A DNA stretch of 64,000 bases from Notolepis coatsorum (taxonomy: Eukaryota > Chordata > Actinopteri > Aulopiformes > Paralepididae): assembly GCA_963971535.1 (NCBI GenBank), contig OZ020585.1:24123236-24187235 (forward strand). The letters run 5' to 3'. The notes under the pieces were generated by a model that was not told the DNA's origin, searched no databases, and saw nothing but the letters and a program-made list of their open reading frames with translations. The position numbers were made by a program, and so were the translations under genes. This document shows, piece by piece, positions 1-50,195 of this stretch. Positions within the stretch are counted from its first letter, which is position 1. Each line of letters starts with the position of its first letter.

Positions 1-1826
1 GAGCATGCACGCGCCCCCCTCCACGAATAGTTGGGTGGCGCATTGGACGTTGCGTGTGTACCCGATTCAATATTAAAAACCGTTCTCAGTCATATTGTAA
101 GTGCCAATTTACAGATTGAATCCATACACATCACGCAACGTACATAACCATAAATCCTTTCACTCATACTCAAACATCATACACCCACAAATGTTTAACC
201 ATAGCTTGCAACATACGACTCCCCATTAAGTACTATTCTTATGTTACAGCCTATCGCCGTTTAAATTTAACACGCCCGGCGGTGCCCAAGGTTAAACCAG
301 ACCTATTTGTGCTCCATCTCTACTTTAGAAAATACGACGCACATGTGCTAAAGCCAATACTGTAAGGCATACAACGCACATGTTTACCTTGCTTAACCTC
401 GAGCACGAACCTAGACATGTCTCTAAATACTTCCTTACCTTTTTTTAATGTTCCGACTGCCAGCGGCGTCCCGTTTATTGTGCTAAAATTCTACTTTAGA
501 ATGTACTACGCACGATTGTGCTTAAAACCCTTACTTTAAGGTATACGACGCACGGTGTGCTTAAAATCCTGCTTACAGGACATATAACGCACACAGAACC
601 TAGAGCCGCCATCCTTTGGTCAGAACATTCCATTCAATATCTTTTTACAGTCATATTTTTAGCAACCCCCTCGTTGGTTCGAATAGAGCCCCCATATTTA
701 TCATCACACTCACCTCTCAGCAACTCCCTAGTCACTTGAAGACGGATCGATTGATCAGTTGATTCCCCGTTGACCGTTCGTGAAGAAAGCGAAGAGAGAA
801 AAAAAAAAAACTTTTCTTTGTTGTGATGACAAAACGAGCGCGCTGATTCTTTGTCACGGCACCACAATGAAGTGGATTCCCAGCTTAAATTCCCTATTAC
901 TACTTCTTTCTGCGTTGTGATTTAAACCTTTTTACAAGCTCTTGGGATCCACTCTTTGCTAAATGCAGATAACCACTGTTGAACAGACCTGGTTATTGCT
1001 TTCCCAGAGAGAAAAATACGGCGCTGCCGTTTGAAATGAAGCAAGATCTGAGCAGTTTGAAAAGAACCAGTTTTTAATGAAAATGGATTTCAATCAGATG
1101 TTACAAAAAGAAAATATTGTGCAATGAACCTGCGAGACGCATCCAATATGCCGGATGTTCGCAGAAATTCAGACTAAATTCTCAATAAAAAGCTTGTCTA
1201 TAAACAGCCTCGCGTCTCGTTCTTCTTCGTCAATTTCTTCTCCTTGCTGGGTTCTAGTGGAGAAAAAGGGTGTGTTTGTTTCTTGTTGCTTCCTGGGTTT
1301 TTGGGTTGGTTGTTGTGTCTCCTGGCGAGGAGTTTTTGGTTATATCTTATTTAGGCTCCGCCTCTAATTTTACGGCAAGCGGGCGTTTCCAAAACTCTCC
1401 TCGAGTGTTCCTATTGGAGAACACTTATTCTCAGCTCTCATTGGCTAACTCCTTACCGTGACGTTTTGCACCAAATTAGGTCACGATGTGGATTCAAAGT
1501 CCAGAATGCTTTGATCAACTGATCCTTTGTAAAGAAGAGACTGTCTGGCGTCTCTCAAGGCAGTTTCTTTGTCTTCTTATTTAATTGGACAATTTGCCTA
1601 GAGCACTAGGTTGTAAAATCACCCAGTTTATTAACTTTCCCAGGAAGTTCAAACGAGACTATCTCTTTATTCAATCAGCAGCTGCCTGTTTCAACACCCT
1701 GGTTAAGAGCCTTGAGTCACGCAGCTGCTTCAAATCAGCGATACGTCTCGTTTGTTTTGTCGGTGTTTCTGCCATTCTGATCCAAGGTGTACAGTACAAT
1801 AAATAGTTTGACTGGGAATCTACTAC
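1..1826. other. Upstream region without a recognisable gene
   Basis: No open frame here looks like a known protein and no RNA gene is visible. The stretch is moderately AT-rich. It carries a block of degenerate short repeats at about 322-600 (listed separately). Part of it presumably contains the promoter and 5' UTR of the P2X7-like gene that starts at 1827, but I see no clear TATA box or other decisive promoter signal. Confidence 0.5.
322..600 (+). repeat. Degenerate tandem-like repeat, about five units
   Basis: A motif close to ACTTTA(A/G)G-ATA-TACGACGCAC followed by TGTGCTTAAA recurs near 322, 358, 492, 532 and 570, with units of roughly 35-45 bases and an unrelated gap in the middle. Similarity was judged by eye. 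It could be a decayed satellite, or the promoter part of an old mobile element. I could not assign it to a family. Confidence 0.45.
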
Positions 1827-1990
1827 ATGGGTTTAATCGTCGGAGACTTTGATGGACCTGCTCCATACAATTTCGAGCCTGTTAGGCAAGAGACACCAGC
1901 AGCAGATGCCTCTGTCAGACCTCGATATCGCCAGGAGATGGAGTTATTATGGGGCAACAACAACATGTGGAGGATCGCTCAGACGTCGTG
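1827..1990 (+). CDS. Exon 1 of P2X7-C-like gene
   Basis: Encodes about 54 residues from an ATG, with PAPYNFEP near the start and ending in AQTS plus two bases of a Trp codon. The donor GTAAGC follows at 1991. The proline/phenylalanine-rich leader before a WC..C motif is typical of the stand-alone fish P2X7-like genes. Phase 2 at the boundary fits exon 2 exactly. Confidence 0.7.
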
Positions 1991-2020
1991 GTAAGCCGCA
2001 CGCGTCATTATCAACAGTAT

Positions 2021-2170
2021 AGAATGAATGAATGAATGAAAACTTTATTTAACAGATTGCAGAATGGGTACAATACAGTACGGCTCGATACACACAATTG
2101 TTAAGGGGATGCAGACCAGAGAAAGACGTTTGTCTTGTTTACATCAGGTTCCCCCATTTTCAATTCATAG
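2021..2170 (-). repeat. Interspersed repeat, copy 1 (in intron 1 of P2X7-like gene)
   Basis: Begins with (GAAT)n followed by ACTTTATTTAACAGATTG and ends near CCATTTTCAATTCAT. Other copies lie at 28288-28436 and 33833-33905 (opposite orientation) and 50040-50190 (same orientation). The short tandem tail and a TTTATT box (AATAAA on the other strand) point to the 3' end of a LINE or LINE-driven SINE read on the minus strand. Confidence 0.6.
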
Positions 2171-2296
2171 TGATAGCCTAACGTTTGCAGTGTATCAATA
2201 ACAGTTGGTTTCATTGGTAGGGCTACTGCATGTCAGCAGTAGCCTAAAGTTCAAACTTGTTCGGCGACCTTTTCTTTTTTCTGTCTTTGAACTCAG

Positions 2297-2482
2297 GTGT
2301 CTGTGTGGAGAATGTCAACCTATGACCACTGGTATAGAGAGCATGTGTTGCAGAGAGATACAGCCCTATTGGAAGCTAGTAGAGGATTTAGCACCCAGAC
2401 CTGAGAACATCCGTTGTCTGACACAACACCCTGGATTTGAAGGTTCCTGTCTGAATCCTTTTGTGCTGCAGATAGCATATCT
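2297..2482 (+). CDS. Exon 2 of P2X7-C-like gene (cysteine-rich core)
   Basis: Follows a polypyrimidine tract and an AG at 2295-2296. It encodes WCLCGECQPM, then SMCCREI, CLTQHPGF and SCLNPFVLQ, the cysteine and histidine pattern of the P2X7 C-terminal domain. Phase with exon 3 requires the exon to end after 2482, where the sequence reads CT/ATAG rather than CT/GT. Reading on without splicing meets TAG at once (2484-2486). The simplest reading is a donor destroyed by one G-to-A change. A non-canonical AT-AG intron is less likely. Confidence 0.75.
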
Positions 2483-2667
2483 ATAGCCTTCCACCAGGAG
2501 CATGTAGAACTCACCCTCAGGACTTTTGATTAAGTTGTACAATATTTTATGAAAAGTATGACTCACACCTGAAATGAACATGACCTGTATTTTCATGCCT
2601 ACTGCAGTGCTATGACACGAGAATGTCCCTTGCAGGATTAATAAAGCAATCTATCTCTCTCTTCCAG

Positions 2668-2807
2668 CCAATACCGCTACACAGCGTACAGACAGATGAT
2701 TCGCTGGGTTTATGGTAAACTTGGTCGCCACAATAGGAAGGTCATACCTGCCTGTGTAGTCCACGCCATCAGACGGACGTTTTCAGAGGAAGGTGGAAAC
2801 TACAGAG
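2668..2807 (+). CDS. Exon 3, first part, of P2X7-C-like gene
   Basis: Starts after CTTCCAG. It encodes QYRYTAYRQMIRWVYGKLG and ends with RRTFSEEGGNYR, the conserved C-terminal end of the domain. The last nine bases are the target duplication of the L1. The exon resumes at 9729-9757 with GFLWSDLSQ and a stop, matching the usual short tail after the last aromatic residue. Confidence 0.75.
2799..2807 (+). repeat. L1 target-site duplication, left copy
   Basis: ACTACAGAG, repeated at 9720-9728. It is exonic sequence of the P2X7-like gene, followed directly by the T-tract that is the L1 poly(A) tail on the other strand. Confidence 0.85.
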
Positions 2808-2840
2808 TTTTTTTTTTTTTTTTTTTTTTAATTTTTTTTG

Positions 2841-4167
2841 CACAAATCTCTCCAATATTCAACACATATCTTCCCACATCACAATATGCAACATCCAAGA
2901 TTTGCCTTTTTCTTTTTTTGTAAGAACATACAAAACATGTAAAAGACTCATACAAATACATAAAAAACTGACATGGAAATTAAAAAAAGACTTACGAAAA
3001 AAAATACTATACAGTACATTGTGCATATATATCCCTGATGCACATACTTTACATGTAGACCGATCTACCTGCGAGCAGGTATGTGCTGCATCTTCTATCG
3101 GGATGCCATCCTTCTCCATATTGCCTGTGAGAGAATGCGTCTCAGATATAGTCAAGAGTCAAGAGTTTTATTTGTCACGGCATACAAGTATACAATGAAA
3201 TGCGGGTGGTCTTGCCCGCAACGATGTGCAATACAGTGGTACAACATATAATAGAATCCAATAAAAACAACATTGTGCAATAACAGGTAACAGGTAACAT
3301 GGTGTGACATCTCGGTATCTGTACATAGTTATTTACAGAGCATATAGGACATGCTAGGTAGCTTTGGTAGTGCAATACACTGTTACTGTTGCTATACTAA
3401 TTAAAAATTTAAAGTGGCCTTTCCTTTTGGCAATAAGTGTGTGTGAGTGCGGCATGTAGGTGTGCATGAGAGCATGCATGCATGTGTGTCTCAGATATAT
3501 GTACGTGGGTACGTGTATCACGTAAGTATGTGTGCACGCCTCATACGTGTGTGTGTGTGCATCTTTCTGGTGTGTGACTGTACTCCTACCTCTTGTGTGT
3601 GTCTCGTATCCATGTGTGCCTCTGCCCCCTATGTGAGTGTGTATCTCAGGTATGTATATGTATGTGCGTCTCAGCTACGTATGTGTGTGTCCCCTATGTA
3701 TGTGTATATCCCCGATATGTGTAAGTGAGAGCCTATGCTTCAACTATGTGTATATGTACGTGTGTGTATGCCTATTTCCTATAAATGAGTATGTGCATGT
3801 ATGTGTGCCCCTGGCATGTATATCTCAGCCTTGTGCATATGAGTGTGTGTAAATCTAGTATGTACACATACGAATATGTGTATCCTAGATACGTGTATGC
3901 GGCTAAACATGCGCATATGAGAGTGTGATAGAGACGGTGGCCATTCCATAGATACACCATCCGGACATAAAATCTATGCATATACATACATAATACAATA
4001 TAAAGTACAAGTACCATCAGATCAGATCCCCTTTTTCACATTCATCCTTGATACCATTGTAATCCCACCTTAATCATTTGTCCCCAGACTGTTCAGTCAG
4101 GTGTAGAAAACTGTCCCATACCTCAGCGAAGATATCCTCTCTCCCTGCGACTCTATATGTCACCCTT
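2841..4167 (-). other. L1 3' UTR with TG-rich simple repeat and an inserted fragment
   Basis: The stretch holds no gene. About 3154-3420 looks like a separate insert (TTTTATTTGTCACGGCATAC type, resembling a LINE 3' tail read backwards). About 3430-3900 is a TG-rich degenerate array in which TGTGTGTCTC and ATGTATGTG recur. Many short frames here are simple-repeat artefacts. Confidence 0.55.
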
Positions 4168-7100
4168 TCATATGATGCTGTCCGGAACATTAGTTCCATC
4201 CATTCTAAAAGTAATATCAACGGGTGATTTCCAATGTCGTAATGCAATTCTACATCCTGATATCATGGCCATTCTATACCACATTCCCCGGTATTTAGGC
4301 AGTTTAATCCCTTTCGGTACTATACCCAAAACACATGCCATTGGGGAGTTATTTATCTTCACATTCAGAACCTTACTTAGGAATATCACAATTTGATCCC
4401 ACATTTTCCGGACCTTCTCACATTCGTATAGCATATGTAGTAACGTGCTTGTCTCCTTCTCACATCTCCAGCAGATGTCACTGTCCCTTAATTTTAGTCT
4501 GGCCAGTTTACTAGGCATCCAATAGCTTCTGTTCAACACTTTGTAAAAGATAAGTTGTGATTGTGCCTCCCGAGAGAATTTACCCCATTTGGACACCAGC
4601 TTCTCCCACATTTCCTCAGTAATATCCTCACGTACATCGTTCTCCCAGCTCAGCCTCAGACCCGCCAACTTGGGTGCATTGTATTCTCTTATAACATCAT
4701 AGAATCTTGACGCACCGCCTTTCCTACGCCATCCTTTATATTTCTTGAATTGCAGTAATCGGGCCACACTTTGGCCCTCCCATTGATGACGATATACAAT
4801 GTCTAATCTGTAGGAATTTATAGAAGTTTTTATTATCTATACCAAAATCCTCTTTAATATCCTCAAAAGGTAAAACCCCATCTTCCCCGGCTATATCACC
4901 TAGTACATGTATCCCCCTTTTAATCCAGTCGTCCCATATGACTGATTTCTTACCAATCTTTAGTTTTTTATTATACCATATAGAGGCTCTTGTAGTTAAA
5001 TATGGGCTATCACCAGTCAGCCTGTGCGACTGATTCCAAGTTTCCCTGACAAATGCCATTAGAGGGTTCTTAAAAGGTATAGGTCTGTCTGATTGTGTCA
5101 GGAAGGATTCCAGAGATGAGGGATATAACATTTCCTCCTCCATCTTGACCCAAGCAGGTGCCTCCTCAGTCGAGTGATTCAATTTGGAGAGCTGGGAGAG
5201 CGAGAACGCATAGTGATACCAGTCTAGTTTAGGCAGGGATAAGCCGCCATTTTCCTTTGCTGAATACATTTTGGCCCGTCCAAATAGCGGCCTTTTGCCC
5301 CCCCCACAGATATACATGAATGACTTTGTCATACTGTTTGAGTAACTGGGTCGGGAGAGTCAGCGGCAGCATATATAGGATATAATTTAATTTGGGAGCC
5401 AATATCATTTTTACTAAGTTTATCTTCCCCAGGAGGGACATATTCATCTTGGCCCAATTCTGGGTCAAAGCACTAATGTGTTCGATTATAGGGGCAATAT
5501 TGGCTTGCACTATCTCTTTCAGACCTGGGATCAGCTTTATTCCTAGGTATATCAACCCTGACGACATCCATCTGTACTGCCAGCCCCTCCTGATAGCAGG
5601 GGGACAACATTTAGAGAGAGGCATTGCTTCTGACTTGCTCCAGTTGATTGTGTATTCAGATATTTCGGAGAAGGACTCGATAATAGTTCCAATGACCCCA
5701 GCTGCTGTTTGGGGATTGCTGGATACCAATAAGATATCGTCCGCATATAAAAATAATTTATGTTCCACCTGCCCCGCTATTACCCCTTTGATGTCTTGAT
5801 TAGTCCTTAGTGCGATAGCAAGTGGTTCGAGGAAGAGCGCAAACATTTGGGGAGGAAGCGGAGAACCTTGCCTCGTCCCCCGCCCTAGATTAAAGGGCGA
5901 GGATACGATCCCGTTGGTCAAGACTGAGGCCATCGGATTTGTGTATAACAACTTTACCCACCCAGTAAACGATGGTCCGAACCCGAAGCGCTCTAGCGTG
6001 TGAAATAAGAATGCAAATTCCACCTTATCAAAGGCCTTTTCGGCGTCCAATGAGAACGCCACTGTAGGTTCTGTATCATCCCTAACCTTCCACAGTATGT
6101 GTAGGAGTCTGCGGATATTATCAGCTGAGTTTCTCCCCTTCACAAAACCCACTTGATCTGAGTGCACCAAAGTTGGTAGTACATCTTCTATTCTATTCGC
6201 TAGTATCTTTGCCAATACTTTTTCTTCCAAATTGCTCAGGGATATAGGCCTATAGTTTCCACAGTATTGAGGGTCTTTGCCCTTTTTCTGTAGTAATGTA
6301 ATAGTGGCCGATCTCAAGCTAGTGGGCAATCCCCCTTTTAACAGTGAATCTTGATATACTTTCAATAGTCTCGGAGCGATTATATCACTGAATTGTTTGT
6401 AGAAATCGGGAGTAAACCCATCGTCTCCTGGTGCTTTACCCAATTTAAGGCTGTTGATTGCCGCGTGTATTTCCTCTATCGAGACCCCCCCTCCATTGAT
6501 TTTACTTGTTGTTTCGATAACGACGGCAATTAAATTTTGTCGAAGAACGCGTCCAGTTTTACCTGATCCACCGCCGTCTGTGGGGTATATAAATCCTGGT
6601 AAAAGCACCTGAAAACATTATTAATTTCCTTTTTGTCTGTAATAATTTTGTCATCCTTATTACGAATTGAGGATATAATATTTTGATTTTGCATTTGTTT
6701 AACCCGATTCGCTAGTATTTTACCCGCTCTCTCCCCTTGTTCATAGTATCTTTGGTTGGTCCTAAATAACGCATATTCGGCCTTCTTTTGATATATGTTG
6801 TTCAATTCATATTTGGATTTGTTTAGGTTTCTCCACGTTTCTGGGTCTGGTCTCTGACTGTGCTGTTTCGAGAGTGTTTTAATTTCCTCGTCCAATGCTG
6901 TCATTTTTTGTTTCTCTGCCCTTTTTAGTATTGCACTGTATTGTATGAGTCGCCCTCTCATGTAAGCTTTACATGTGTCCCACATTATGCCACTATCATC
7001 TATTGACCCTTCATTAAGTTCCCAGAATTCCTTAAATATAGTTCTAATGTATGCACACGACCCTTCATCATTTAACATCAGGTTATTGAATTGCCATCTC

Positions 7101-7837
7101 AGAGATCGTTGCCCTTCCTCCATGGATGTGATCACTAAATCAACCGGAGCATGGTCAGATATTACAATGCTCCCTATCCCAGTATCTGCTACTTGTTCTA
7201 CCAGTGCGCTAGAGATCAGGAAATAGTCTATTCTAGAGTATGAGGAATGCGGGTGAGAGTAAAACGTGTAGTCTCTTTCCTGTGGGTTCATAACCCTCCA
7301 AATATCCACTAGACCCAATTCCTCTACCAGTACACCAACCGCCATTCTCCCTGCGTTGTCAGCGGTCCTGGGTTGATATGATTTGTCCAGCAAGGTGTTT
7401 CCAACCAGGTTGAAGTCCCCCCCTATGATTACATTGCTATTCCCTATTTTCCTGATCACCTCACATACTTCATGGAAAAAGTCTGAGGACGACCCGTTGG
7501 GCGCATATATATTAGCTAAGGTAGTCCTCTGCCCCTCCAAATCAGCATCCAGTATAACCCATCTTCCCTCATCATGTGAGAAACTATTGTGCACCTTAAC
7601 GTCTATGTTTTTTCTCACCAATATTGCCACCCCCCTCTTCCTAGAAGAGAACGTACTATAGAATATTTGTCCCACCCAATCCCTCTTAAGCTTGGCCGAC
7701 TCCTCCTCATTCAGGTGCGATTCCTGAATTAGTGCAATATCCGTCTTTTTTTGTTTCAAGAACGTCAGTATCTTTTTTCTCTTAATGGGATGATGACATC
7801 CGTCTATATTCCACGATACTATTTTAATCAGCCCCAT
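4168..7837 (-). pseudogene. L1 ORF2: endonuclease and reverse transcriptase, frameshifted
   Basis: Would cut target DNA and reverse-transcribe the L1 RNA. The apurinic-type endonuclease is in the first frame (7837-6530), with SWNIDG, LIQESHL, GGDFNLV, SRIDYF and SDHAP. The reverse transcriptase follows (6608-5229), with FSLDAEKAFDKVEF, GTRQGSPL and the catalytic YADD. The C-terminal frames (5332-4736 and 4767-4168) end in a zinc-knuckle-like CWRCEKE..LLHMLYEC. The reading frame shifts near 6.55, 5.29 and 4.75 kb. The start ATG at 7837 gives the usual MG-IKIVSWNI L1 endonuclease opening. Random target sequence and ORF1 type favour the L1 clade over site-specific Tx1 relatives. Confidence 0.9.
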
Positions 7838-8579
7838 ATTCCTCGTAATGTATCTCCCCTGTGCAATCCAGGACGTAGTGCCTCTATGTCTGGGGCGCCA
7901 TCTCCCATACTTCTATATCTAGAACCTGAGATTGTGATGATATATATACAATAGCATAGCACATAATGAAATAAAAAGGAACATATAAAAACATAAATAC
8001 ATTCCCCCCCCCCACATTTACCCAAGCTACATTCGATAGGACCCCAGATAGAACAATTGTACCGAGGGTGAGATCGATACTCACCCGTGCATCTTGGTCC
8101 CCCTCGACTAACAGAGGAGTGCATTTGGCACAAGGCAGGTTGCCCAAAACCGTGTCCCTACTATTTTGTATACCCTGATGTAACGTATGGCTCACACTGT
8201 AATCTATATACAGTGCGATCAATTCAACTGAACTTGTCAAAACGGTAACGTTTTTTCTCTTCCAACAATTAACATTTGTATATCTCTTAGATATATATTG
8301 GTACATTGTAACTTCTATGACATATCCATAATGGACTGTGGTTCATTTCGTTATCCTTTTTTTTATTTTATTTTATTTTTTTATCTATCCAGGATATTTC
8401 CCCTCCCACACTTTTAGCATATTCTCCTATACATTGCCCCCTATTCACATTTCAAGTTTTTTTTTTTTTTTCATTACTTTTTTTTTTTTTTATATACATA
8501 TTGGCACTTTGTGATGTTTGTTATTCTATGACGATGCCCCTGTGACTTATCTGTATCCACGCGCTTCTTGAACGTTATC

Positions 8580-9602
8580 TTAATTGTCCGCCTCCGACTG
8601 TCCCCGTCTGAATCCCTGTAGTTTCTCCCGGTATCCGTGATGCCCATTGCCCTGCTGCGCGGGGCCTTCATTCCCCGTCGCCTGTATGTCGTCCCCCGGT
8701 CCCCGTTTTCTTCCCACCGTCTGCCAGGTAGACAGCCGCAGTATCTCCTCTCGATCTGGGTCGGTAGTCGGGTTCACCACGGTGATCTTGTATCCACGTC
8801 TTGCCATATCCGCCGTCGCCTCCGCTGCGTTCTGGTACAGGCGGGTGCCATCCTCATAGAATACCCTCATCATCGCTGGATATGGTGTCTGGAACTTGAG
8901 ATTCTTCTCCTTCATTATTCTCTTGGCCTCGGCATATTCTCCTCGCTTCTTCAGTATTTCAGTGGGGAAATCATGGTCGACATAGAAGCGTTCATTGTCA
9001 CATGAGACGTTTTTCTTCTGCCATGTTCGGCGTATTATCTCTTCCTTCATTTTGTAGCTCCCAAACTTAACCACGATTGACCGTGGTTTCAGCTGCGGGT
9101 TGTTAGGCCTTGGGGCCAATGCCCGGTGTGCTCGTTCGATACGAAGGTCCATGTCATGAGGCAGGCCGAGTGCGTCCTTAAACAGGCCGTCTAGAAATCC
9201 ATGCATGTCTTTTCCCTCTTTCTCCTCTGGGATACCATATACCCGTAGGTTCTCTCTCCTCGTTCTGCCCTCCTGGTCGAGCAGTTTAGCCTCCATGTCG
9301 GCCTGCCTCTGTAACAGTTTCTTGATTAAAACCGTCGCCGCATCAAGCACATTTTCATTTTCTCCGATTCTTCCCTCCGTTTCACCGAGCCTGTCGTTCA
9401 TTCTGTTCATATCCCGAAATTGACGTTCATTGTCTCTTCTGAATTATTTGAGCTCCTTGTATATGTTCAACAGCGTGGCCTCTCGTTCAGAGTCATCGTC
9501 GCCATCTTTTCCTCCCGTTGCGTCGCCATTCTCTGCCATTCCGTCGTCCTTTTCAGTTGTAATCGTGTTCGCCCTACGTCTTGTGATAGCCCCTTCTTTC
9601 AT
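8580..9602 (-). pseudogene. L1 ORF1: RNA-binding protein, one in-frame stop
   Basis: Encodes the nucleic-acid chaperone that coats L1 RNA. The chosen start at 9602 gives MKEGAITRRRANT. A TAA interrupts the frame at 9444-9446, after which it is open to 8580. A heptad-like region (NRMNDRLGETEGRIGENE, then LLQRQADMEAKLLDQE) suggests a coiled coil. Next come RRENLRVYGIPE and the RRM-like and C-terminal domain (RIERAHRALAPRP, RSIVVKFGSYKMKEEI), as in the Transposase_22 family. The tail is charged and disordered-looking. Confidence 0.85.
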
Positions 9603-9719
9603 CCCTATTAAATATATACCCTGGTGTTGTTAATAAATGTTTTCCGGGGCTATATCATTTTGCTGTCGGGGAGCTCGCGAGTTAGGCTGCCATGTTCTTC
9701 CGCGGTCAAACCGAAAGTC

Positions 9720-9728
9720 ACTACAGAG
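9720..9728 (+). repeat. L1 target-site duplication, right copy
   Basis: ACTACAGAG, identical to 2799-2807. The P2X7-like reading frame resumes directly after it. Confidence 0.85.
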
Positions 9729-9752
9729 GCTTCTTATGGTCAGACTTGAGCC

Positions 9753-9758
9753 AATAAA
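9753..9758 (+). promoter_or_regulatory. Polyadenylation signal of the P2X7-like gene
   Basis: AATAAA overlaps the TAA stop codon, giving a very short 3' UTR. A position this close to the stop is unusual, but it follows directly from the reading frame. Confidence 0.5.
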
Positions 9759-11167
9759 GTTATTGAACTGAATTGACAGTATTCATGTTTTTCTTCCTTA
9801 GATGCCAAAAACATTTGGTCACTATTGTCAAAGATATGATATACTACACAGGTAAGGTCTTACAATGGCTTAGTGATTATAACAGTGCAGTTCAGCATTC
9901 AGTAACCCATACTTTTTGTGAACATGTTTTTGATACTACATTCTGTTGAACACACACCTCAAAACCGTACCTAAGGAAAATTGTCTCAATTGCAAGAAAG
10001 ATTATAGACAGTTATGATATTACATTCTGCTCAGCATAATTTGTATGCAAAATATTGTGGTTCCCTGCTTTAGTCTGTTGACACATTTCTATACTAAATG
10101 TTTTTGTAGTCCTGTGTCATACCTAAATGTCATATAAGTGAATTGTATAGAAACAACTCACCAAAAGTGACTATTTGTCAACTGATTTGACTAAACAAAT
10201 CCACCAAAGGGGGGAAACCGCCCCTTCACCCCCACATCCGTCCCTCCTTGCCATACCTTAGCTTTTACTGAAATGACGCCACTGCATAGCAATAGATACA
10301 TGTGGGAAGCACATGTGAATAGAATATATACTATATGTAGTAAGCATATGTGGTGTGGGGGTAGAACCAGTCTAACCTGCTTGGGTTACCATTGCATTCA
10401 TTACCTGTACATCCTCTCCCACTAGAACCTATTCACTCCATCTTACGGAGCCTCTCCCTCTCAGGAGAGTTTAGAGACCTCTCACACGTTTCATCATTTT
10501 GAAAACCCCCGGTGCTCCCCCCCCTCCCCTCCTCTATGTAAAAAATGATTAGGGTTTTCCTTTCTCGTTTACCAGTCATTTTGTCCATGACACTGCATAT
10601 GGGGGTAATGAGGAAATTGTGTTTCACCAAGAGGATTTAACGTTTTGTAAACATTCCCATTTTTAAACGTCAAATTGCTAACACTAAATGATGGAATGCT
10701 AAGCTATTTTTGTTGCTATTTTAAACTGCGACTTCCAGGCTTTATCGGAGAGAGAAATGTCTATTAGAGAAGGCCTTGTCCACGGGACCACAGCCGGCAT
10801 GAACACAGACGAAGCTAGGAGCGATCTATTAATAGTCCATTAATTTTCCTGCAGCAAAGACTGAAGAGAGGGGAGCAGACGGAAATACGTCCCCCGTGAG
10901 AGGTCTCCTGAGCGCCTGCAGACTTCCAGAATGAGGCCCCTTCAATCTTCTGCTGTGAGACCCCGCCCCAACCGTAGTTGGAGAAGTTACCAAGCGTCAT
11001 AGAAACTTTGTTGAATATTGTACTTTTAATTAATACACCATGTTAGCCTTGTTAGCATTCCCATCAGGTTAGCTTGCTGGCAGGGACAGTAGCTCGTTCC
11101 TTTGTGGTGCTGGTTGGAGTGTGTGTGGCTTATGTAGTCTGTTATACCAGTGTCTGTGTGACAACAA
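9759..11167. other. Intergenic stretch, nothing recognised
   Basis: No open frame with family resemblance, no RNA gene and no clear repeat copy. Base composition is ordinary for the window. Confidence 0.5.
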
Positions 11168-11354
11168 GCAGACAGTGGCTCAGGAGGTAGAGCGGTCGTC
11201 TGGCAATCGGAGGTTCCCGGTTAGATTCCTGGTCCTCCCGGGCAGCGTGTTGAACTGTCCTTGAGCAAGCCGCTTGACCCCCTAATTGCTGTAAATCAAA
11301 ATGCTAAATTGTAAAGCTCTTTGGATAAAAGCCCTATATAAATGCACCATTTAC
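11168..11354 (+). repeat. tRNA-derived SINE
   Basis: The head reads GTGGCTCAGGAGGTAGAGCGG (A-box region) and GGTTCCCGGTTAGATTCC (B-box-like), as in a tRNA gene. The middle has TCCTTGAGCAAGCCGCTTGAC, and the tail has AAGCTCTTTGGATAAAAG and CTATATAAATGCACCATTTACC. This is the layout of a widespread teleost SINE whose 3' end is shared with a partner LINE. Confidence 0.8.
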
Positions 11355-12389
11355 CAAGCAGCTGAGTGAATCCAGACTTGGATCACTTTTGTCAACACAA
11401 ATCACAATGCAGAGCCCAAATCGCTAACAGCGTTAACAGTGTGGCACACTCAACCTACTCCAGAACTGATTCAACTGAACTATGTTGTCTATATTATTGT
11501 TACTATCTTATCTACTGCCTACATCTGTCTTACACTGTATTCATACCTACTTTCAATTTACTACTTTTATCCAACCTATAGTTTATCCACATAACACTGT
11601 ACAATAATATGTACGTATATCTATATGGTTGGTTGGTTATATTTACCATAGTGTATTCATAATTATACCCCTGTGTACAAAAATATTGTACCTACATTAG
11701 CTTAGCATATTTACTCTAACCTTTTCATATACTGTACTCCATATATACACACGCTATATATATGTACACTACAATGTACATATTATTTATACGTGTGCAA
11801 TGACAAATACATTGAACCTATTCTAATCTAACACAGAATGGTTGCAACTGTGAAGGGAAGTGTAGTGACGCTGCAAATACTATGATTAGTCGGCTGTTGC
11901 CCATTGGGCCGTGATGTCCAAAAAGGTGTCAACATCAATGTCTTTCTGACAATGGTCTTTAGACCAACATCGGTTCCACGTTAAATGTAGGCTACTACAA
12001 CTGCTTAAAAAATCTTCCTATGAGACAATTCAGATTTGGGTTTAATGAAAATAATTAGTGTAAGTTGTACTGTGACATCAGTTGGTCTGGACTCCGGGGG
12101 GCCGTTGCTAGCCGGGGGAGCATCCATTATACATGCACTAATGTGGGCTTAAACATCAGAATTTAGCAGTCAACCCCTTAACCAACCTCTAAGCCTCGCA
12201 ATTTCCACGTCTCCTTTCAACGCTACGACACTGGACAGAGGAAATGATGAGGCAATTACACTGTGAAATTATGTCTGCTATAGGCTATATATACCATCTC
12301 CTCTGATCTGCTCTTTCTCTCCCTCTCTCTCTCTCTCTCTTCTCTCACTTTCCCGGTTAACGCTGCCATGCAGTTGACTATTCTCACCT
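11355..12389. other. Intergenic, AT-rich, with a short CT tract
   Basis: No gene is seen. A short (CT)n tract lies near 12310-12345. The rest shows no repeat I could match within the window. Confidence 0.5.
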
Positions 12390-12650
12390 TCCCCCCATCG
12401 CCACGGTCGGGGAATGAATTTTCATAATGAATTGTTCACGTCCTCTGTGGCGCTACAGGCGAGCGGTGAACCCCTGACAGTGGAGACGGACGCGGCCGGA
12501 CGCGTCACTCCTCCGAGATGGAAGGAGAATCGATTAATGGAAGCATGAGGCCAAAACAATTACAACGTACCGGGGCGGCAATGAAATTACAACGTGTCTG
12601 TGGCTGCATGAGGAAAATTGCAGATTTCAAACATTCAATAATCCAGGGAA
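12390..12650. other. Possible conserved non-coding element
   Basis: This piece stands out from its surroundings. It is balanced in composition and low in simple repeat, with several homeodomain-like ATTA/TAAT cores (TCATAATGAATTG, CGATTAATGG, CAATTACAACG) next to GC-rich blocks (GGACGCGGCCGGACGCGTC). There is no ORF. This is an impression from the sequence only; no alignment could be run. Confidence 0.25.
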
Positions 12651-12783
12651 CACAGGTTTGTTAGCTCACTTGCGCTAAGTAAAGTAACCTGGAGAACCAT
12701 TTAATGGGGACATATTTTATAATAATATATATACGGTAGGTCTTTGAGGTCTCATAAACATGTCTTTAAAGTTTTCTGCTGAA

Positions 12784-14177
<1,394 letters not shown>

Positions 14178-14314
14178 TGATTGTGATTGGTCAATAGCGC
14201 TCGGTTGCCCATAGCAGCGGTCAATTATTTCTCGATAATTCACCGCTGCTATGGGCAACGCGCAATAATGACCGCTGTTAGGGGCAACAGAGCGCTATTG
14301 ACCAATCACAATCA
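14178..14314. repeat. Palindromic MITE-like repeat 1
   Basis: The outer arms GATTGGTCAATAGCGCT (left) and AGCGCTATTGACCAATC (right) are inverted copies. An inner hairpin pairs GTTGCCCATAGCAGCGG with CCGCTGCTATGGGCAAC around a short loop. A third partial arm (CCGCTGTTAGGGGCAAC) lies between. Such compact nested palindromes are typical of small non-autonomous DNA elements. Confidence 0.7.
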
Positions 14315-14500
14315 AGCATTTTGATCGCAGTCACGAAAGCTAAGGTCAGCATATGCACAGCTGCACTACATCAGGTGCAATCAGACCACACACCTGCCGG
14401 CGATGACAGAGGAGCAACAGAACAACTGCGTCTGCATTTGATCTCGTCTTGTTGATGGTGTAAAATGAATTACGTTAGTAAGTTAGCCCTGTAATAAGCG

Positions 14501-14615
14501 GGATAATGTATAGCTATACTCGGTCATTATCGCAAAATAATTGACCTTCACTGCGTTTAGAACACCGTGCCGGTCAATTATTTTGCGACAATGACCTTGT
14601 AGCTATACATTATCC
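14501..14615. repeat. Palindromic MITE-like repeat 2
   Basis: Arms of about 45 bases (GGATAATGTATAGCTA..ATAATTGACC and GGTCAATTAT..TAGCTACAAGG on the complement) flank a 25-base loop. It shares the GGTCAATTATT motif with repeat 1, so the two may be related or parts of one element. Confidence 0.65.
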
Positions 14616-14838
14616 CTTACTTAAATACTCACTCTTGAATCCCTCCGTCTAGTCCTCTCCATCCAGAGAGGGTGGCCGCTTTTCCTTTTCCATTTCTGCT
14701 CCCTGTACATAAAATAGAAATTATTTTTTAACTGATCACTCAAATGAATACTGTGATGGTCAAGATGGGTCAACAATTAAGTGTTGGGGTACATACTATA
14801 AATGTGAGAATAAGGAGCATGCATTGTTAAAAAAGGCT

Positions 14839-15231
14839 TCAGAAGGCCTTGGGAACAGCAGTATCAGGGGCTGGAGCTGGACAGGCTCTTTCATCAGCAC
14901 TTCTCCTTCCCTTTGCCAGCCACAACCTCACATCATTTTCTGGATTGAACTGTCCTAGCGGTGGTCCATTACATTTGATAAAAACCAGACTGGACAGTCG
15001 GCTGACAGAGAGAGCATTCCTTTTTGCAGTAAGGATATCATTCATGCTGCTGAATCCCCGCTCACACTCACTAGTGGAGACAGCGATGGTTCGGAATGCT
15101 TTTAGTAGAGGCTCCATGGCAGCAGGTGTACGGGATGCGCTGATTTCCTTATATTCACGAAAGCCCTGAACAGTCTGTCTTCTGTGACTCGAAGCTTCGA
15201 AGCTTCGTTCGATGGCACAAGCTTCGAACAT
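14839..15231 (-). pseudogene. hAT transposase C-terminal fragment
   Basis: Encodes 130 codons ending in the hAT dimerisation region: AFRTIAVSTSECERGFSSMN, then LTAKRNALSVSRLSSLVFIK. The Ser-x-Cys-Glu-Arg-x-Phe-Ser motif carries the last acidic residue of the hAT catalytic triad. The N-terminal two thirds are missing. The upstream sequence on that strand runs into CTTCGAAGCTTCGA-type repeats, so the ATG at 15231 is probably accidental. A KIAA1586/ZNF862-like relative is likely. Confidence 0.8.
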
Positions 15232-15472
15232 TAAAAAAAAATCGAAGTAAAAAAAAAGAAAATCAAAGAAAAAAAAACACTTGATACTGACTCAAATAAT
15301 AAGCTCAGAAATACAAAAATACAACACTATGTCCAGGCAAACCTTTGTCTATGTAGGCTTTAGAGGGTTATGGTAACTCTTTCATGTTTTTATTGTTTCA
15401 TGTTTGCTGTAGCCTGTAGTTACTGTCATCTGTTTCTGCAGCGGATAACTGTCACACTCTGTCGCTGCCTGG

Positions 15473-15592
<120 letters not shown>

Positions 15593-16103
15593 CCAGTGAG
15601 TCGTAGTTTATAGTGCGCTCAGTGATCTATTCCGTTGTTCTTTAATCCGTGCCTAACCCTGTGTTGTCCTCTTTTCCCGCTGTCCGATACCTGGCTCTTC
15701 ACCCCAGGCATGTGAGCTTTGAGATCGGGTAAGCATAACAATATTTTAATACACTTAATTACACATTGTGCCAAGCACAAATGCTATGGATGAATGCAGT
15801 GTCAAGGAAATGCCATTCACACAAATGTATGCCCTAGAACCCACTAATATTTTTTTTTAACCCTAGTTGCCAGTCGTGATATGTTTCAAATCAAGGGCCA
15901 TACACGTTGCCCATATAAGGGCCGTTGGACGCTTAAATAAAGTAAAACCAGTGCAGCACAGCAGTCGACTCAGATCGCCACTTCATAGTACATTACAAGG
16001 CATACCTTCAAACGTAAATTAGACACGGCGGTCTTAAATTAATAAAGTATAACCAGTTGTTGACGTCACACAGCCAGACACTGTTACACAGTGCAGCACA
16101 GCA

Positions 16104-16295
16104 GTTCTGTTTCGTAATGGCTCTCGCTCGGCGTCACTCTCTGCACTGTACCTCACTCGTGCACGCGCACTGAATAAAAAATTCCACAATGCACCTTTAC
16201 ATCCCAACATCCGTCTGGCCACACCCCCATCAGCTTACCTACATAAGCAGGGGTGGGGCCACACACTCGCCTCCTTCTTCGCTTTCACCACAAGG
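16104..16295 (+). repeat. Left inverted terminal repeat of the DIRS element
   Basis: Starts GTTCTGTTTCGTAATGG. It includes CTCGGCGTCACTCTCTGC and GTGGGGCCACACACTCGC, and matches the right end in reverse complement with few differences. Confidence 0.85.
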
Positions 16296-19200
16296 AAGTG
16301 CCTTCGGTAGATCCCCACTTGACGAGGTTGTTAGTAGAAGAAAGTTGGAAAACAAGAGATACGTTGACATCATATCTTTATTTTCTCTCTCACTATTTTC
16401 GAGAAAATACGCTGATATTGTCTTCGTTACTGGAGTGCCTGGAAGATGATGATCATTCTACACCTCCACCGGTTTTTTCGTATTAGGAGTTCAAGCCGCT
16501 GACATGCCTCCCAACTACAATCCTCCTTGCTGCGGCTGGATGGGGTAAGACCCTCCAGCAACACAGCTGGACTGTAGGACGCACCGACTGTTGTGAGAAG
16601 CGGTGGGTTCCAGGTTTGGTGAGTAATGTTTGCTTGCGAGCACCACTTGTCTGTTAGTGCTATGGGGGCTAGCTGACAATGTTTACGAAAACCGGCCCCA
16701 GATTAGGGTCCTTCTGTTCAGCCTTTTAGGCGACGGCGGAGGATCTTGGTTTGAAGCCCATTATAGTCAACTAGTGGGCCACGACCAGTAACTGGTGATC
16801 CCAGGATTCTCTGGACGAGTGGATGCTTCTCTGTCACCGTGTAGGCCCCATCTTTCATATACAAATGAGAGTATACCCTCACGAGGAAATGTGGGCATGG
16901 ATGTTCGTTATCGGGAGATCCATGTTCAAGTCGGCTACAGCCCAGATGGGACTTGTGCTGGCTCCGCCGGATGTCTGGTAAAATCACCGTTGTAAACTGT
17001 GTTGACATCTCTTTTTCTCTTCTCTCTTAAAAGGTGAGGAGGGTTTCAGAACGGCGGCTTGTCTGAAGTGTGGCTTCTTATATCGTTTGTGTACAAGTTC
17101 AGGTGGTAGCTGCTTAGCAGTTAGCTGCTTAGCTTGCGTGCTAGTTGTGGCCTACTGTGTTAGCCAGTCAGCTGTTAGCTGCGCAGCTGTTAGCTGCGGT
17201 ATTAGCTCGCTGTGTTTACCAGGCTAGTACACGTTAGCTTGCTGCTATCAGCCGAACGGCTGTTAGCTTAATGCTACACTGTTGAACGTTTCTGTGACTA
17301 TAACATGCCTTAAACACTCTGACTACGACGTCATCTTTGACAGAGGATGTTAGTCGAACCTACCCGGAGCCGGCCGGCGAGGACTGCGTCAACAAGGAGA
17401 ACCGTAGCGGCGGGATGGAGCAGCGACGCTGCCCGTGTCGTCAAACACAGGATGCTGTGTTTACTACTGGTGCCCTGTTAGAGACTGCAGTTCGCTTGAT
17501 TTGCGCTCTCGGTAGGAAGGTCCTGACCAGACCTTAAAATGCGTCTTCTTCCTTCCCTTCTAAATGTTTTGTAAATAACAATATTTTCCAAAACGAGTGT
17601 TGCTGCACTACATTTAGGATACGACGCGAGTTGTGTGTGAATTGTCTTGTCACTGGTATTAGCTTCTCCATGCAAATCGGGTTGTTTGTTACAGATGTAA
17701 AAATGATCTGGTTTGTTGTGTTGAGAAACATCATGTGTGTTCATGTACCGTGTACTCACAACTAAGGGGGTTAAACTAACCTATAAAGCTATGCTTAGTG
17801 ACATATGAGTGAAGAATGAATTCTTTTCTCAGCCTGTAATGACAATGAACAGTGTGTTCACATATTAACAGGTTTACCTGTTCAACTGGCCGTATTAAGG
17901 GTAAGGCAGGAGGGGTGTTTCCCCCCGGTTCCCTGGGGACTTCCTCACCCTCCTCTCAGACATGTTGTTTACAATATATTGTGTCAGTGTGTGGTGGGAT
18001 ACGATGTAACCCTTGGCTTGATTGCTGGGGTTGTGCTAAAACTGCTTGAGGAACTGTATTTTCCTAAAAGAAAAGATTGTTTGGTCACTTTTCGTGTGTG
18101 CTTAGCAAGGCCTGTGGCCGATACTAATCGAGAATTGTGTATTCTCTCATTATGAAAAACGGCGTTCCTCTGTAGAGTGTATTGCCATTTTTTGTGGTGG
18201 TAAAGGGTTGTGTGTATCTTGTGATCTACAACTGGGTTGGGTTGGCCACAGAAGCACATGTGTAAGTCTGGTACCGGGGCTCTTAAGGGGGCCCTCTCTA
18301 TTCTGTGTTTTTTTCCTTAGTAAAAATCAGATAGCAGGTTAGCACATGAGCTGTGTGAAGCTGTTAGACGCTTCATGTAGCTGACTATGACTGTCATACT
18401 CTGTCGTTACATCGTATCATGGGTGTGGGGTCGTAAAGGGGTGAACTGGTAATCCTTTCCTCCCCTTGTTTGATGGGCAGGGGTTAAGACCTCCTGTCCT
18501 TCAAGGTTCCTGTCACATTGCTGTTCGGCACGTTACAGGGTAAGAGGGGGGGGGGGGGGGAGTTTCCTGGTCCCACGCCCTGGAATATTGGGCGTGTGCA
18601 CTGCAGAAATTCCCCCGCCACAGAGTACGTTACTGTGCGCATCTCTGTTGGTAAGACTTCCGTGAGCTGTTCAGGTCCATATGATGGATCTGTTTCAGGG
18701 AGGGGTCAGGGCTCCTCCTCACGAAGCTCCTACTCGGGCCTTCTGTGAGTTAGGACTCTCCTTCCATGTGAGGGAGCCTCCTCAGAGTGCAGAGCCTCCT
18801 CCTCAGATTGTCAAGGTGAGTAGAACTCCAAAAAGGAGTCCTGCTCTATTGTGTGTGTATTCGATTCAATTCGATTATTGAGTGTATTTGTTCAGTGCCT
18901 CCTCCTCGGAGAGCCCTAATCCAAATATTACATAGCTCAATGTTACAATATATTCTTTTCAATCTATACAGCTCGCGTGGGAAGTCTCTCTGGGGATTTC
19001 CGCCTCCTCCCTATGGGAGGGTGGTGGGATGTAAAAATGTAAACAATTTTTACCCTCAGCCTGCGTCACAAGGGATTCATGTCAGTCTGTGTTCTTTCTT
19101 TTTTGGATAAAAAGAGGAAGGTACATGAAGCACGACGGCTCCGTGTCGTTCTCCCAGGCGACTTGGAGGAACAATGTTGGTGTCTGGCTAGACTATCCAT

Positions 19201-19753
19201 TGATGTGGGTCTCGACGCATACATAGTGCTGGCTCGGTGTGTTTCTGTTACAGGATCACACAGGGGCTAAGCGCGCCTTGGTTGCTTGTAAAAACAGCGT
19301 TTTTATAGGGCAACTGGGATGGAGTTTTGTCTCTTCCGAGCCCCAGTTTACTAGGTTGTCTCGATGAATTCTCGTTCATATCTGGGGGATGTTAACGGAA
19401 TAGATCAGAACATAGGTAGAGGGGTCTCACGCCCTTGGGGTGGGCCACTGAGCACGGTCTAAATGAGGACCGTCTGGGTGGCGCCCTCTTTTCATGTTTT
19501 AGATCGACACGCATACCTACCCCCTCTCCTGGAGTGGGCATGTCGGCGTGGTTAGGACACGGGACTGGTCTGGTCACGCTGGTCCAGGTCAGTTAACCCG
19601 TTGTCCGCCGGGGATGCAGATCTGCTGTTCTGGTACCCAGAGGGACTTGTGCTTTTTTCAGGGGGAAAAATGTCAGGTCGGTCCGGGTGTCACAGGGTTA
19701 GGCGCTATGGAGACCCTTGTTGGGTACATATTGTACTCTGCACTGTCGTAATG

Positions 19754-19872
19754 GCTTACGGCCATGCAAACCTGTACACGCCCGATCTCGTCCAATCTCG
19801 GCCGCTACGCAGGTTTGGTCCTGGTTAGTACTTGGTTGGGAGACCGCCTGGGAATACAGAGTGCGGTGTGCT
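19754..19872 (+). rRNA. Diverged full-length 5S rRNA-like sequence inside the DIRS element
   Basis: All 119 positions align by eye with vertebrate 5S rRNA: GCTTACGGCCAT at the 5' end, CACGCCCGATCTCGTC, then the internal promoter region GGTTAGTACTTGG.TGGGAGACCGCCTGGGAATAC. Helix II has changed on both sides yet still pairs (CAAACCTG with CAGGTTTG, against CCACCCTG/CAGGGT in standard 5S). Helix I near the 3' end (GCGGTGTGCTT) pairs less well. It may be a 5S pseudogene, a minor 5S family or a captured pol III promoter. No SINE3-type tail was recognised. Confidence 0.75.
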
Positions 19873-20533
19873 TGGGGCTGGTTCTCCATTCTTTTCGCTC
19901 CTCTCTCACGTGTGGCGAAGAGGGGGCTGTTGGGGTGGTCTTGGACCTCCTCTGGCAACCCTGTGCTTCCCGTGCCGCCGGGCCCGGTCCGAAGTAATGT
20001 TTCGTCGACCCGTAGGCCTGGAATAACCCTTTTTTGAAAACTGAAACACTTGTACTGCGGTATAGCCAGTTATGCCCGCAGGTGTGTTTTGGAGTTTTCT
20101 CTTGAGGGGTTATAGGAACAACCACCGCATAGGGTAACGACAAGGTGGTTGATTCCCTGGTGTGTTGGAGCAGTGTCAACTCCCGGGTTACCCGGTTGAG
20201 TGTGCCCCTGCACGTTCATGATGTCTGCCAATCATGTCAGCCTTCTCTGCCTCAACCCCTCTGGGTGGTTTTTTTTTAATGGAGGCTTGGTCATGCAACA
20301 ACGCCAGCTTACGCCCCTTCCGCCGGGGGGGCTGTTCTCACCTAACTCCCTTGGCGCCTGTCTCGTCCGCAGGGCTCCAGGCTCAGGTTACAGCCTGTTG
20401 CCTGGTTTCCCCGGTGCGCTGCCTGCTTCCGTTGGTTAACCTTTTTTGTGTGCTTACGGCCATGCTGACTGCCTGTTCTGCAGGGTCAGTGTACCAGGCG
20501 GTGTGCTATTGGGGGGAAAGGGCCCGCTCTTGG

Positions 20534-27213: not shown

Positions 27214-28860
27214 CCTGGGCCCTCATTCGTCAACGTGGACGTAGAACATGTTCTATTTCCACACGTAAGCACAGAATGTAGAATCAGTGCACGCACAGGA
27301 AAATCGGGATTCACCACACGTGCGTACGCAGGTTCTACGCACACCTGTCATGATGAATATGACTTTGATCCTACGTTTGAGCTCGTGCATTTGCATACCA
27401 GAACCGCCCCGATTAATACGGTAATGGAATACCCCCATGAAATGTGGAAAAATGGACTAAGCCGAGGGAAGCGTGTCATGAGACAGGCTGACAGACGTGT
27501 ACACTTACGGTGATGTCGGATATGATATCCATTAACCATTGCTGCCTGGGCAGTGCAAACACTAATAAAGACCGCGCTGGAATATGACTGCCTTTTCCCG
27601 TGTTGTTTGATTAATACCCAGGGATTAAAGTTCTCCTCAATTTTATTCCAAATCGCGATGGATCTTCCGTCAATTTTCTACCTGCTGCATATGATTTCTA
27701 GAGGCATACTACAATCTATTTTGATGTCAGTATTGGGTAGCCTATATAAACAATAATACGAGAGCATATACAAGAACAATGAATCTCACTGCATGTATGA
27801 TAGCCTGCCTTTCAATACATGAACTTGAATTCCATCATGTTTGTGTGCGGGACTCACAAGGCTGTTGTCACAATGGGTGGTACCGGTACAGTAATAACAG
27901 TCCACACAATATCACGATGGACCATGCCATAGCCTATGTTCTATTAGGACATGATCTGTGACGACGAATGTTCTAGAATGTTTGATTAAGATATCATACT
28001 CTGACAGCATGCCTATGATCAACAAAAACGCGAACTTGAATCCCATCATATACATAGTCTGTCCACTATCTGGTGTCATTGCAATGCGTTTTCTATTCTT
28101 TCTTATACAGTAAAAAGGGGGAAGAACACTATATCGTGGGTGTTCATATGACTTGTATTCTGCTTACAGCTTCGAAATTCCACTTGTTTCGTTTAACGTA
28201 AAGCCTTTTAAATATAATCAAAACGTTCCCGTGTTTCTGCGGTCTGTGCGCAAAATAATAACGAGTTGAGCTTTATGATTTATGATGAATTGAAAATGGG
28301 GGACCCTGATGTAAACAAGACGAAAGTCTTTCTCTGGTCTGCATCCCCTTAACAATTGTATGTACTGAGCTGTACTGTACTGTACCCATTCTGCAATCTG
28401 TTAATAAACTTTTCAATCAATCAATCAATCAAGCTACGCGGAGCGCAGTCAGTCAGTAGCCTACACCCCGTATATTCCGATAACGCTATATAAACCATGC
28501 TGCATTCATTCTGAGAGAAAGATCTATTATTCCAAATGCTATTTATAGGGTTTTGACCATAATTACACTACTGTTGCTATTTCACAATGAACTATAATGG
28601 ATTACGGGGGTCATACAGAACACGCGCCAGTGTCTTTATTTCCGCCTTGAAACTAATGCAGAACTGAGGAGCGCTTATGCGTAGTAACGATATTCTACCA
28701 CTGGGCGTCAGCTAAGTGTGCTCCGATCTGTGCGTACACGTAAGCACGGAGTCAAGTTCAAGTTGAAATTGATGAATCCCACTCTTTGCTTAGAAATGAT
28801 CGTACGCACAGGTTAAGCACAAATCTGTGCGTAAGAGACGTTGATGAATGAGGGCCCTGG
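27214..28860. mobile_element. Non-autonomous DNA transposon with CCTGG duplication
   Basis: Terminal inverted repeats start GCCCTCATTCGTCAACGT (27219) and end ACGTTGATGAATGAGGGC (28855). CCTGG lies outside both ends (27214-27218, 28856-28860). Because GGGCCC is palindromic, the exact border is uncertain by a few bases. Subterminal motifs GTGCGTACG and GCGTAAG recur in mirror form. There is no transposase frame. The superfamily is not certain; a PIF/Harbinger relative is possible. Confidence 0.7.
28288..28436 (+). repeat. Interspersed repeat, copy 2
   Basis: GAATTGAAAATGGGGGACC and GTCTTTCTCTGGTCTGCATC lead to AATAAACTTTTCAATCAATC. It is inverted relative to the copy in 2021-2170 and is nested in the 27219-28855 element. 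The AATAAA plus (CAAT)n end marks the 3' side. Confidence 0.75.
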
Positions 28861-33752: not shown

Positions 33753-33832
33753 AAATATACTGTCTCATAAATATACTCTTCCAATATATAAATATACATA
33801 TAAATATATTGTTTTAGATGCTGTTGTCACTA

Positions 33833-33905
33833 TGAATTAAAAGTGGGGGGCCCTGATGTAAACAAGACAAACGTCTTTCTCTGGTCTGCATCCCCTTAAT
33901 AATTG
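33833..33905 (+). repeat. Interspersed repeat, copy 3 (fragment)
   Basis: GGGGGGCCCTGATGTAAAC and CGTCTTTCTCTGGTCTGCAT match the 28288-28436 copy. The tail half is missing. Confidence 0.7.
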
Positions 33906-34134
33906 TTTGATATTGGATGGTCCCTGTGCTGTTGTTTTTCTTGTACAGAAATACTGTGTAATCTCTGTAACATCTGAAATGGTACTTTGCCTCTGCAGCA
34001 ACCAGATCCACCCCACGTATATGGAGGAGCAGGTGCTCATCTTTGGGGGCCTCTGCTGCATCACACAGCCTATAAGAGACGAAGATCATAGTGGTAGATC
34101 GACCTAACCACCTCCAATGTACAGTTCCCCCACC

Positions 34135-50039: not shown

Positions 50040-50195
50040 TGATTGATTGAACATTTTAATTAACAGATTGCAGAATGGGTACAGTACAGTACAGCTCAAT
50101 ACACACAATTGTTAAGGGGATGCAGACCAGAGAAAGACTTTCGTCTTGTTTACATCAGGGTCGCCCATTTTCAATTCATGACATTTATGACATAC
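50040..50195 (-). repeat. Interspersed repeat, copy 4
   Basis: Starts (TGAT)n, then AACATTTTAATTAACAG and ATTGCAGAATGGGTACAG; ends CCCATTTTCAATTCATG. Closest to the copy in intron 1 of the P2X7-like gene and in the same orientation. Confidence 0.75.

Follow-up and report, generated by a model that had tools for sequence, protein, structure and literature searches.

A 64-kb stretch of the Notolepis coatsorum genome (contig OZ020585.1 of assembly GCA_963971535.1, positions 24,123,236 to 24,187,235 of the forward strand), free of N and referred to below as the window, contains at positions 1827–9757 a gene copy with the P2RX7_C domain (Pfam PF20478), which forms the zinc-coordinating tail of P2X7. 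The placement of an L1-type retrotransposon within the last exon of this copy, with the reading frame resuming behind the element, is well supported. The copy itself is probably a pseudogene with two independent lesions, one being the L1 and the other either a TAG codon in exon 2 or the loss of the exon 2 splice donor.

An L1 Element Interrupts the Last Exon

An exact 9-bp repeat, ACTACAGAG, is found on the forward strand at 2799–2807 and again at 9720–9728, and a poly(T) run starts at 2808, the first base past the left copy. The 6912 bases enclosed by the two copies (2808–9719) hold an L1-type element on the reverse strand, with its poly(A) end on the left and its 5′ end on the right; the features that identify it as an L1 are an apurinic/apyrimidinic endonuclease, a reverse transcriptase, the poly(A) end, and the target-site duplication. 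Counting both strands, ACTACAGAG occurs three times in the 64 kb, compared with a mean of 0.51 in shuffled sequence, and three occurrences were reached in one of 100 shuffles. A better measure of chance for the pair is local recurrence: in 162 of 199,334 trials (0.0008), a random 9-mer turned up again within 31 starts of a second, randomly chosen place. A preliminary description of this DNA had proposed that a 9-bp duplication brackets an L1, and the paired copies and the position of the poly(T) run confirm it. The event is a standard antisense L1 insertion in an exon and not a chance arrangement.

The portion of exon 3 to the left of the element (2668–2807, forward strand, with acceptor TCTCTCTTCCAG) covers P2RX7_C profile positions 145–189, and the portion to the right (9729–9757, forward strand) encodes Gly-Phe, seven further residues, and a TAA stop codon that is overlapped by an AATAAA signal at 9753. 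The left piece alone scores 38.0 bits and ends at position 189 of the 192 in the profile. When 2807 is joined to 9729, the domain regains its Gly-Phe end, the score rises to 42.8 bits, and the match extends to position 191, in agreement with the earlier proposal that the frame resumes after the L1. Counting against this joint, exon 3 read directly into the L1 also ends at position 191, at 37.3 bits; because the read-through frame extends equally far, it is the score rather than the reach that favors the 2807/9729 joint.

Comparison with P2X7 argues in the same direction. The model matches the sequences of four P2X7 chains in the PDB, with weak E-values of 0.0025 to 0.046, and the three printed chain alignments continue through the joint to the GQYSGF end of the chains (a fifth match, with E = 0.5, is an unrelated protein). 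The Gly-Phe pair is invariant in an alignment of the model with stretches of three P2X7 chains. Motif 3 of the P2X7 tail domain is given in an excerpt of PMC7016195 as (L/I/V)PSC(C/S)x3IRx2(F/Y)Px5Y(S/T)G. In relaxed form, with the published spacing and the final Gly, this motif is found across the joint and is absent from the read-through frame; in strict form it fails because four letters differ, with Ser replaced by Ala, Cys/Ser by Val, Pro582 by Ser, and Ser/Thr by Arg. As a chance level, Gly-Phe followed by a stop within the next nine codons occurs at 43 of the window's 63,940 frame positions. The downstream piece is therefore not without a counterpart, since its Gly-Phe matches the conserved end of the P2X7 tail domain and the relaxed motif spans the joint.

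Exons and Domain Content of the Gene Copy

Two exons on the forward strand precede the interrupted one. Exon 1 as modeled (1827–1990) opens with ATG, comprises 54 codons and two bases, and ends at the donor GTG|GTAAGC. This donor scores 8.0 on a crude matrix of textbook frequencies, suited to ranking only, a value equalled by just 1.1% of the window's 3866 GT sites. Exon 1 alone has no Pfam match. Exon 2 as first modeled (2297–2482) carries six of the domain's seven zinc cysteines; its 3′ limit is not a GT donor, and an alternative end lies at 2503 (AT|GTAGAA). The joined model (1827–1990, 2297–2482, and 2668–2807 with 9729–9757) is 519 bases long and encodes 172 residues, its one stop being terminal, and it matches P2RX7_C at 56.5 bits compared with a cut-off of 23.5. 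All seven zinc cysteines (C56, C58, C61, C72, C73, C95, and C146) are invariant in the alignment with the three P2X7 chain stretches, the sixth matching only after a 15-column gap in P2X7; there are two 15-column gaps overall. An apparent shortfall of 15 columns in the model at the exon 2–exon 3 joint was discounted, because in the same alignment the model is 15 columns longer between the fifth and sixth cysteines and the Pfam spacing is exact.

A search of the window with the three exons (tblastn) recovered only the gene itself at E < 0.2 and no second paralogue. Relatives were also sought in contig collections that are, by their descriptions, viral, bacterial, and archaeal. The model protein gave two pattern matches in viral contigs, and the alignment gave 22 in viral contigs and 66 in genome contigs, none of which was confirmed.

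Intron 1 contains a short interspersed repeat (2022–2168) that is 90–93% identical to three other places in the window, at 28285–28430 (reverse strand), 50040–50179 (forward), and 33827–33909 (reverse). Beyond the gene, 45 bases past its stop, there is an exon-like stretch at 9802–9851 (forward strand). Its acceptor, TTTTTCTTCCTTAG, is rich in pyrimidines, and its donor, CACAG|GTAAGG, is strong, scoring 11.5 bits by the crude matrix; Pfam gave no match for the fragment enclosing it.

The Exon 2–Exon 3 Junction Is Not Canonical

The cut implied after 2482 reads CT|ATAGCC in place of a GT donor and scores −12.9, compared with 8.0 for the donor of exon 1. The exon 3 acceptor at 2668 requires a phase-2 donor, and an in-frame TAG at 2484–2486 (forward strand) lies just past exon 2 as modeled. 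Ahead of this codon, phase-2 GT donors are found only after 2302 and 2344, and their use would lose five or three, respectively, of the six zinc cysteines in exon 2. The first phase-2 GT past the TAG is at 2504, with 1.1 bits on the crude matrix, and splicing there would place the TAG inside the exon. Because the joint has no GT and no canonical route leaves the domain whole, the present sequence predicts that the 172-residue protein cannot arise by canonical splicing, whether the L1 is present or absent.

Two other kinds of donor were considered and set aside. By the crude matrix, the in-phase GC donors after 2464 and 2467 reach −13.8 and −7.1. At 2477, ATATCTATA resembles the AT-AC donor of a U12-type intron, which is unlikely here, as visual inspection revealed no matching branch site and the acceptor is of the ordinary kind, a pyrimidine tract with AG.

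With exon 2 extended to the GT at 2504 and the TAG read as X, the domain matches at 55.1 bits in one continuous stretch, whereas the first-modeled joint gives 51.1 bits and a cut after 2476 gives 50.7 bits, each in two stretches. We infer that the joint reflects a mutation rather than an unrecognized gene structure and that the copy is non-functional. Several observations weigh against this interpretation. The 4-bit gain of the 2504 alternative over the first-modeled joint is modest, and the latter preserves the Pfam spacing exactly (residues 75 to 118 against profile positions 101 to 144). Among the in-frame GT–AG alternatives, whose use loses conserved residues, a pair with its donor after 2442 and its acceptor at 2685 keeps all seven cysteines at the cost of 19 residues, among them a conserved Arg, so that a shorter product of canonical splicing is possible as judged from the sequence. 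Apart from the exon 2–exon 3 joint the exons are open, and the exon 1 donor is good, which indicates that decay is not heavy. Finally, the viral, bacterial, and archaeal contig collections yielded no relative with an intact exon 2–exon 3 boundary.

For the preliminary description, these results have two consequences. Its three exons totaling 519 bases with one stop hold as arithmetic, with a junction that lacks a GT, and its statement that the locus gives the ancestral gene structure is too strong, the end of exon 2 being ambiguous.

Decay of the L1 Element

The remains of open reading frame 2 (ORF2) of the L1 extend over 4168–7837 on the reverse strand as four overlapping frames, which amounts to three frame changes. 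From the 5′ side these are an endonuclease piece (6530–7837, 62.6 bits in Pfam), a reverse transcriptase piece (5229–6608, 119.6 bits), a piece with no Pfam match (4736–5332), and a zf-RVT piece (4168–4767, 28.5 bits). ORF1 (8580–9539, reverse strand) has a weak Transposase_22 match of 17.7 bits, below the cut-off of 22.4, and one in-frame stop, a TAA at 9444–9446 near its beginning. The ORF1 stop and the three frame changes in ORF2 mean that the element is neither intact nor potentially active; it is dead, has decayed since insertion, and is not young.

Within the 3′ untranslated region of the L1, a 337-base tract (3151–3487) is flanked by the 12-bp repeats GTCTCAGATATA at 3139–3150 and 3488–3499. 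It is probably a later nested insertion, likely rather than certain because the surroundings are repetitive and of low complexity. No second L1 copy was found by blastn in the window, and the 5′ end of the element at 9719 is accordingly fixed by the target-site duplication alone. The description of a full L1 running from poly(A) to 5′ end thus stands with respect to the poly(T) run and the L1 domains on the reverse strand, although the element is not one clean unit, given the nested tract, the ORF1 stop, and the ORF2 frame changes.

Affiliation of the Gene Copy

Judged by its domain content, the gene copy looks like a stand-alone zinc-domain copy of the nanor or KolX type and not like a P2X7 receptor gene. 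Pfam recognized no P2X channel domain in five fragments to the left of 1827, within the 1.8 kb available upstream. According to excerpts of PMC7016195, the P2X7 tail domain also occurs in stand-alone nanor-like genes without conserved synteny, whose proteins (PANTHER PTHR36981) consist of the zinc-coordinating domain of P2X7. An excerpt of PMC9587614 places the same cytoplasmic “ballast” domain in the KolX protein of Kolobok (Kol0) DNA transposons and proposes KolX as the source of both nanor and the P2X7 tail.

The published motifs 1 (PxWCxCx2C) and 2 (LCCRx3GxCITTS/T), as excerpted from PMC7016195, are absent in strict form from the model as read by eye: motif 1 has Thr for Pro, and motif 2 reads Met-Cys-Cys-Arg, with the next Cys at another distance. 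Since both motifs were derived from P2X7, their failure bears on membership in P2X7 more than on membership in the domain family. Of the conserved positions named in the same excerpts, eight are kept in the copy (R546, A549, Y550, I/V568, P570, C572, R578, and F581) and three are changed (E496 to Ser, Y/F553 to Met, and P582 to Ser); W559 was omitted from the mapping, being Gly in the numbered chain. The three changes may represent decay or lineage differences.

Searches for remains of a Kolobok transposon gave no candidates. Pfam recognized no Kolobok transposase in 9 of 72 flank fragments of 48 amino acids or more, with 1.8 kb available upstream, and a local search with two transposase fragments found nothing. 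For termini of the form TTAA with 5′-RR...YY-3′, the best of 130 pairs matched at 9 of 16 positions, a value of at least 9 being reached in 180 of 200 shuffled controls; when the RR/YY rule was relaxed, the best of 2808 TTAA pairs reached 10 of 16, a figure without a control run. Among inverted repeats of 30 bases or more in positions 1–20000, none brackets the gene.

Surroundings in the Window

The window is rich in mobile elements. Pfam identifies a hAT transposase frame at 53697–55121, a second frame, at 41025–44471, that carries reverse transcriptase, RNase H, and integrase domains, and further reverse transcriptases at 35284–36552 and 61067–62218. The last of these (reverse strand) also matches the Pfam model ALKBH8_N at 49.5 bits, a model that probably describes a segment derived from a long interspersed nuclear element (LINE). 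Inverted repeats with arms of 41–46 bases at 14178–14314 and 14517–14601 lie near a weak hAT dimerization match at 14842–15291 (reverse strand), which is below its cut-off. A 5S ribosomal RNA match of 69.6 bits over the full model length at 19754–19872 (forward strand) marks either a copy of the 5S gene or the head of a short interspersed nuclear element derived from 5S. A 15-base unit is repeated approximately 149 times at 56595–58802, where the reverse strand has three open frames of 782–883 residues.

Discussion

In the most probable account, a stand-alone copy of the P2X7 tail domain at 1827–9757 received the L1 through target-primed reverse transcription; the element lies antisense to the gene, nine residues ahead of its C-terminus, and left the 9-bp duplication. 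The L1 has decayed since insertion, and the copy also suffered an independent second lesion, through the nonsense TAG in exon 2 or the loss of the exon 2 donor. Since this second lesion is likely and nothing in the sequence orders the two, it may be that the L1 inactivated a functional gene or that it entered one already dead. Nor does the state of the exons decide the order: approximately four disabling changes in approximately 4.6 kb of L1 coding sequence would translate into an expectation of roughly half a change for the 0.5 kb of exons over the time since insertion. Loss of the gene through the LINE insertion, for the preliminary description a clear case, is possible, but that reading is too firm. 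The L1 does lie in the exon; the copy, however, lacks a canonical exon 2–exon 3 junction that preserves the domain, and the version with the donor at 2504 carries a stop.

A working host gene knocked out by the L1 alone, with the AT at 2483 arising from a sequencing error, acting as a rare splice site, or postdating the insertion, is an unlikely alternative to a copy with two lesions. It would account for exons that are open over 519 bases in the first model, for the retention of all seven zinc cysteines, for the exact Pfam spacing across the exon 2–exon 3 joint, and for the good exon 1 donor, and the shorter in-frame GT–AG route would be available to it. It is opposed by the joint without GT, where no canonical route leaves the domain whole, by the higher score of the canonical-donor alternative that nevertheless contains a stop, and by the three altered positions that are conserved in the literature. 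Moreover, the L1 displaces only nine residues and leaves 163 of the 172 in the model, adding a 38-residue tail from its antisense strand for a total of 201 (with intron 2 retained, the product would have 117 residues). As nearly the whole domain is still coding after the insertion, the L1 by itself need not have caused complete loss. The same open frame would permit a chimeric gene, still expressed, that ends in the 38-residue tail and takes its poly(A) signal from the same L1 strand. Such a gene would be consistent with the 201-residue frame as first modeled, with an AATAAA at 3260, and with the 37.3 bits that the read-through exon 3 piece retains; it is extremely improbable as judged from the sequence, since it requires a spliced exon 2–exon 3 junction, which is non-canonical in the full model, and its tail opens with a run of Phe and is hydrophobic.

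The pseudogene with two lesions is compatible with a different origin of the interrupted gene, and both can hold. It is possible, if somewhat doubtful, that the copy is the KolX gene, or a fragment of it, from a Kol0 transposon, so that a retrotransposon is nested in a relic and no host gene was lost. The shared domain of the Kol0 KolX proteins, with nanor and the P2X7 tail proposed as derivatives in an excerpt of PMC9587614, points to this origin, as do the lack of conserved synteny among nanor-like genes noted in an excerpt of PMC7016195 and the density of mobile elements around the locus. The failure to find a Kolobok transposase, in either the Pfam survey of 9 flank fragments or the search with two transposase fragments, is a weak negative because of the short upstream flank, and the same is true of TTAA-bounded inverted termini that are no better than shuffled controls. 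There is also a very slight chance that a recently domesticated, nanor-like gene derived from KolX is being remodeled by the L1, either destroyed within the lineage or given a new C-terminal tail; if so, the locus would capture, at a dated point, how genes of a transposon-derived family are born and lost.

The locus shows an ordinary LINE insertion, and the copy that it struck, which belongs to a dispersed domain family, is most likely a pseudogene. Exons are commonly hit by LINEs, and with a target of this kind the locus matters little by itself; among the matches listed in a literature search, no title names such a locus. Its value lies in annotation: the split last exon shows how the final residues of this domain come to be missed, and “P2X7-like” labels on stand-alone copies may denote transposon-derived KolX genes.

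In its poly(A) end, its duplication, and its remains of ORF1 and ORF2, the element resembles ordinary L1 insertions with a target-site duplication. Human L1 prefers a T-rich nick site, from which the site at this locus, AGAG/GC, differs. The target shares its ballast domain with KolX of Kolobok Kol0; unlike in Kol0, neither a transposase nor TTAA-bounded inverted termini were found in the limited searches, with 1.8 kb upstream. Nanor-like proteins are likewise short, with a C-terminal zinc domain and a short N-terminal part, as in the 172 residues modeled here, whereas the copy differs from them in having an L1 in its last exon and an exon 2–exon 3 junction that is non-canonical or bears a stop. 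In P2X7 the domain occupies a single exon, exon 13, according to an excerpt of PMC7016195, in contrast to its division over two exons in the copy. Even so, the seven cysteines of the P2X7 C-terminal domain align with those of the copy, and its Gly-Phe end continues beyond the L1.

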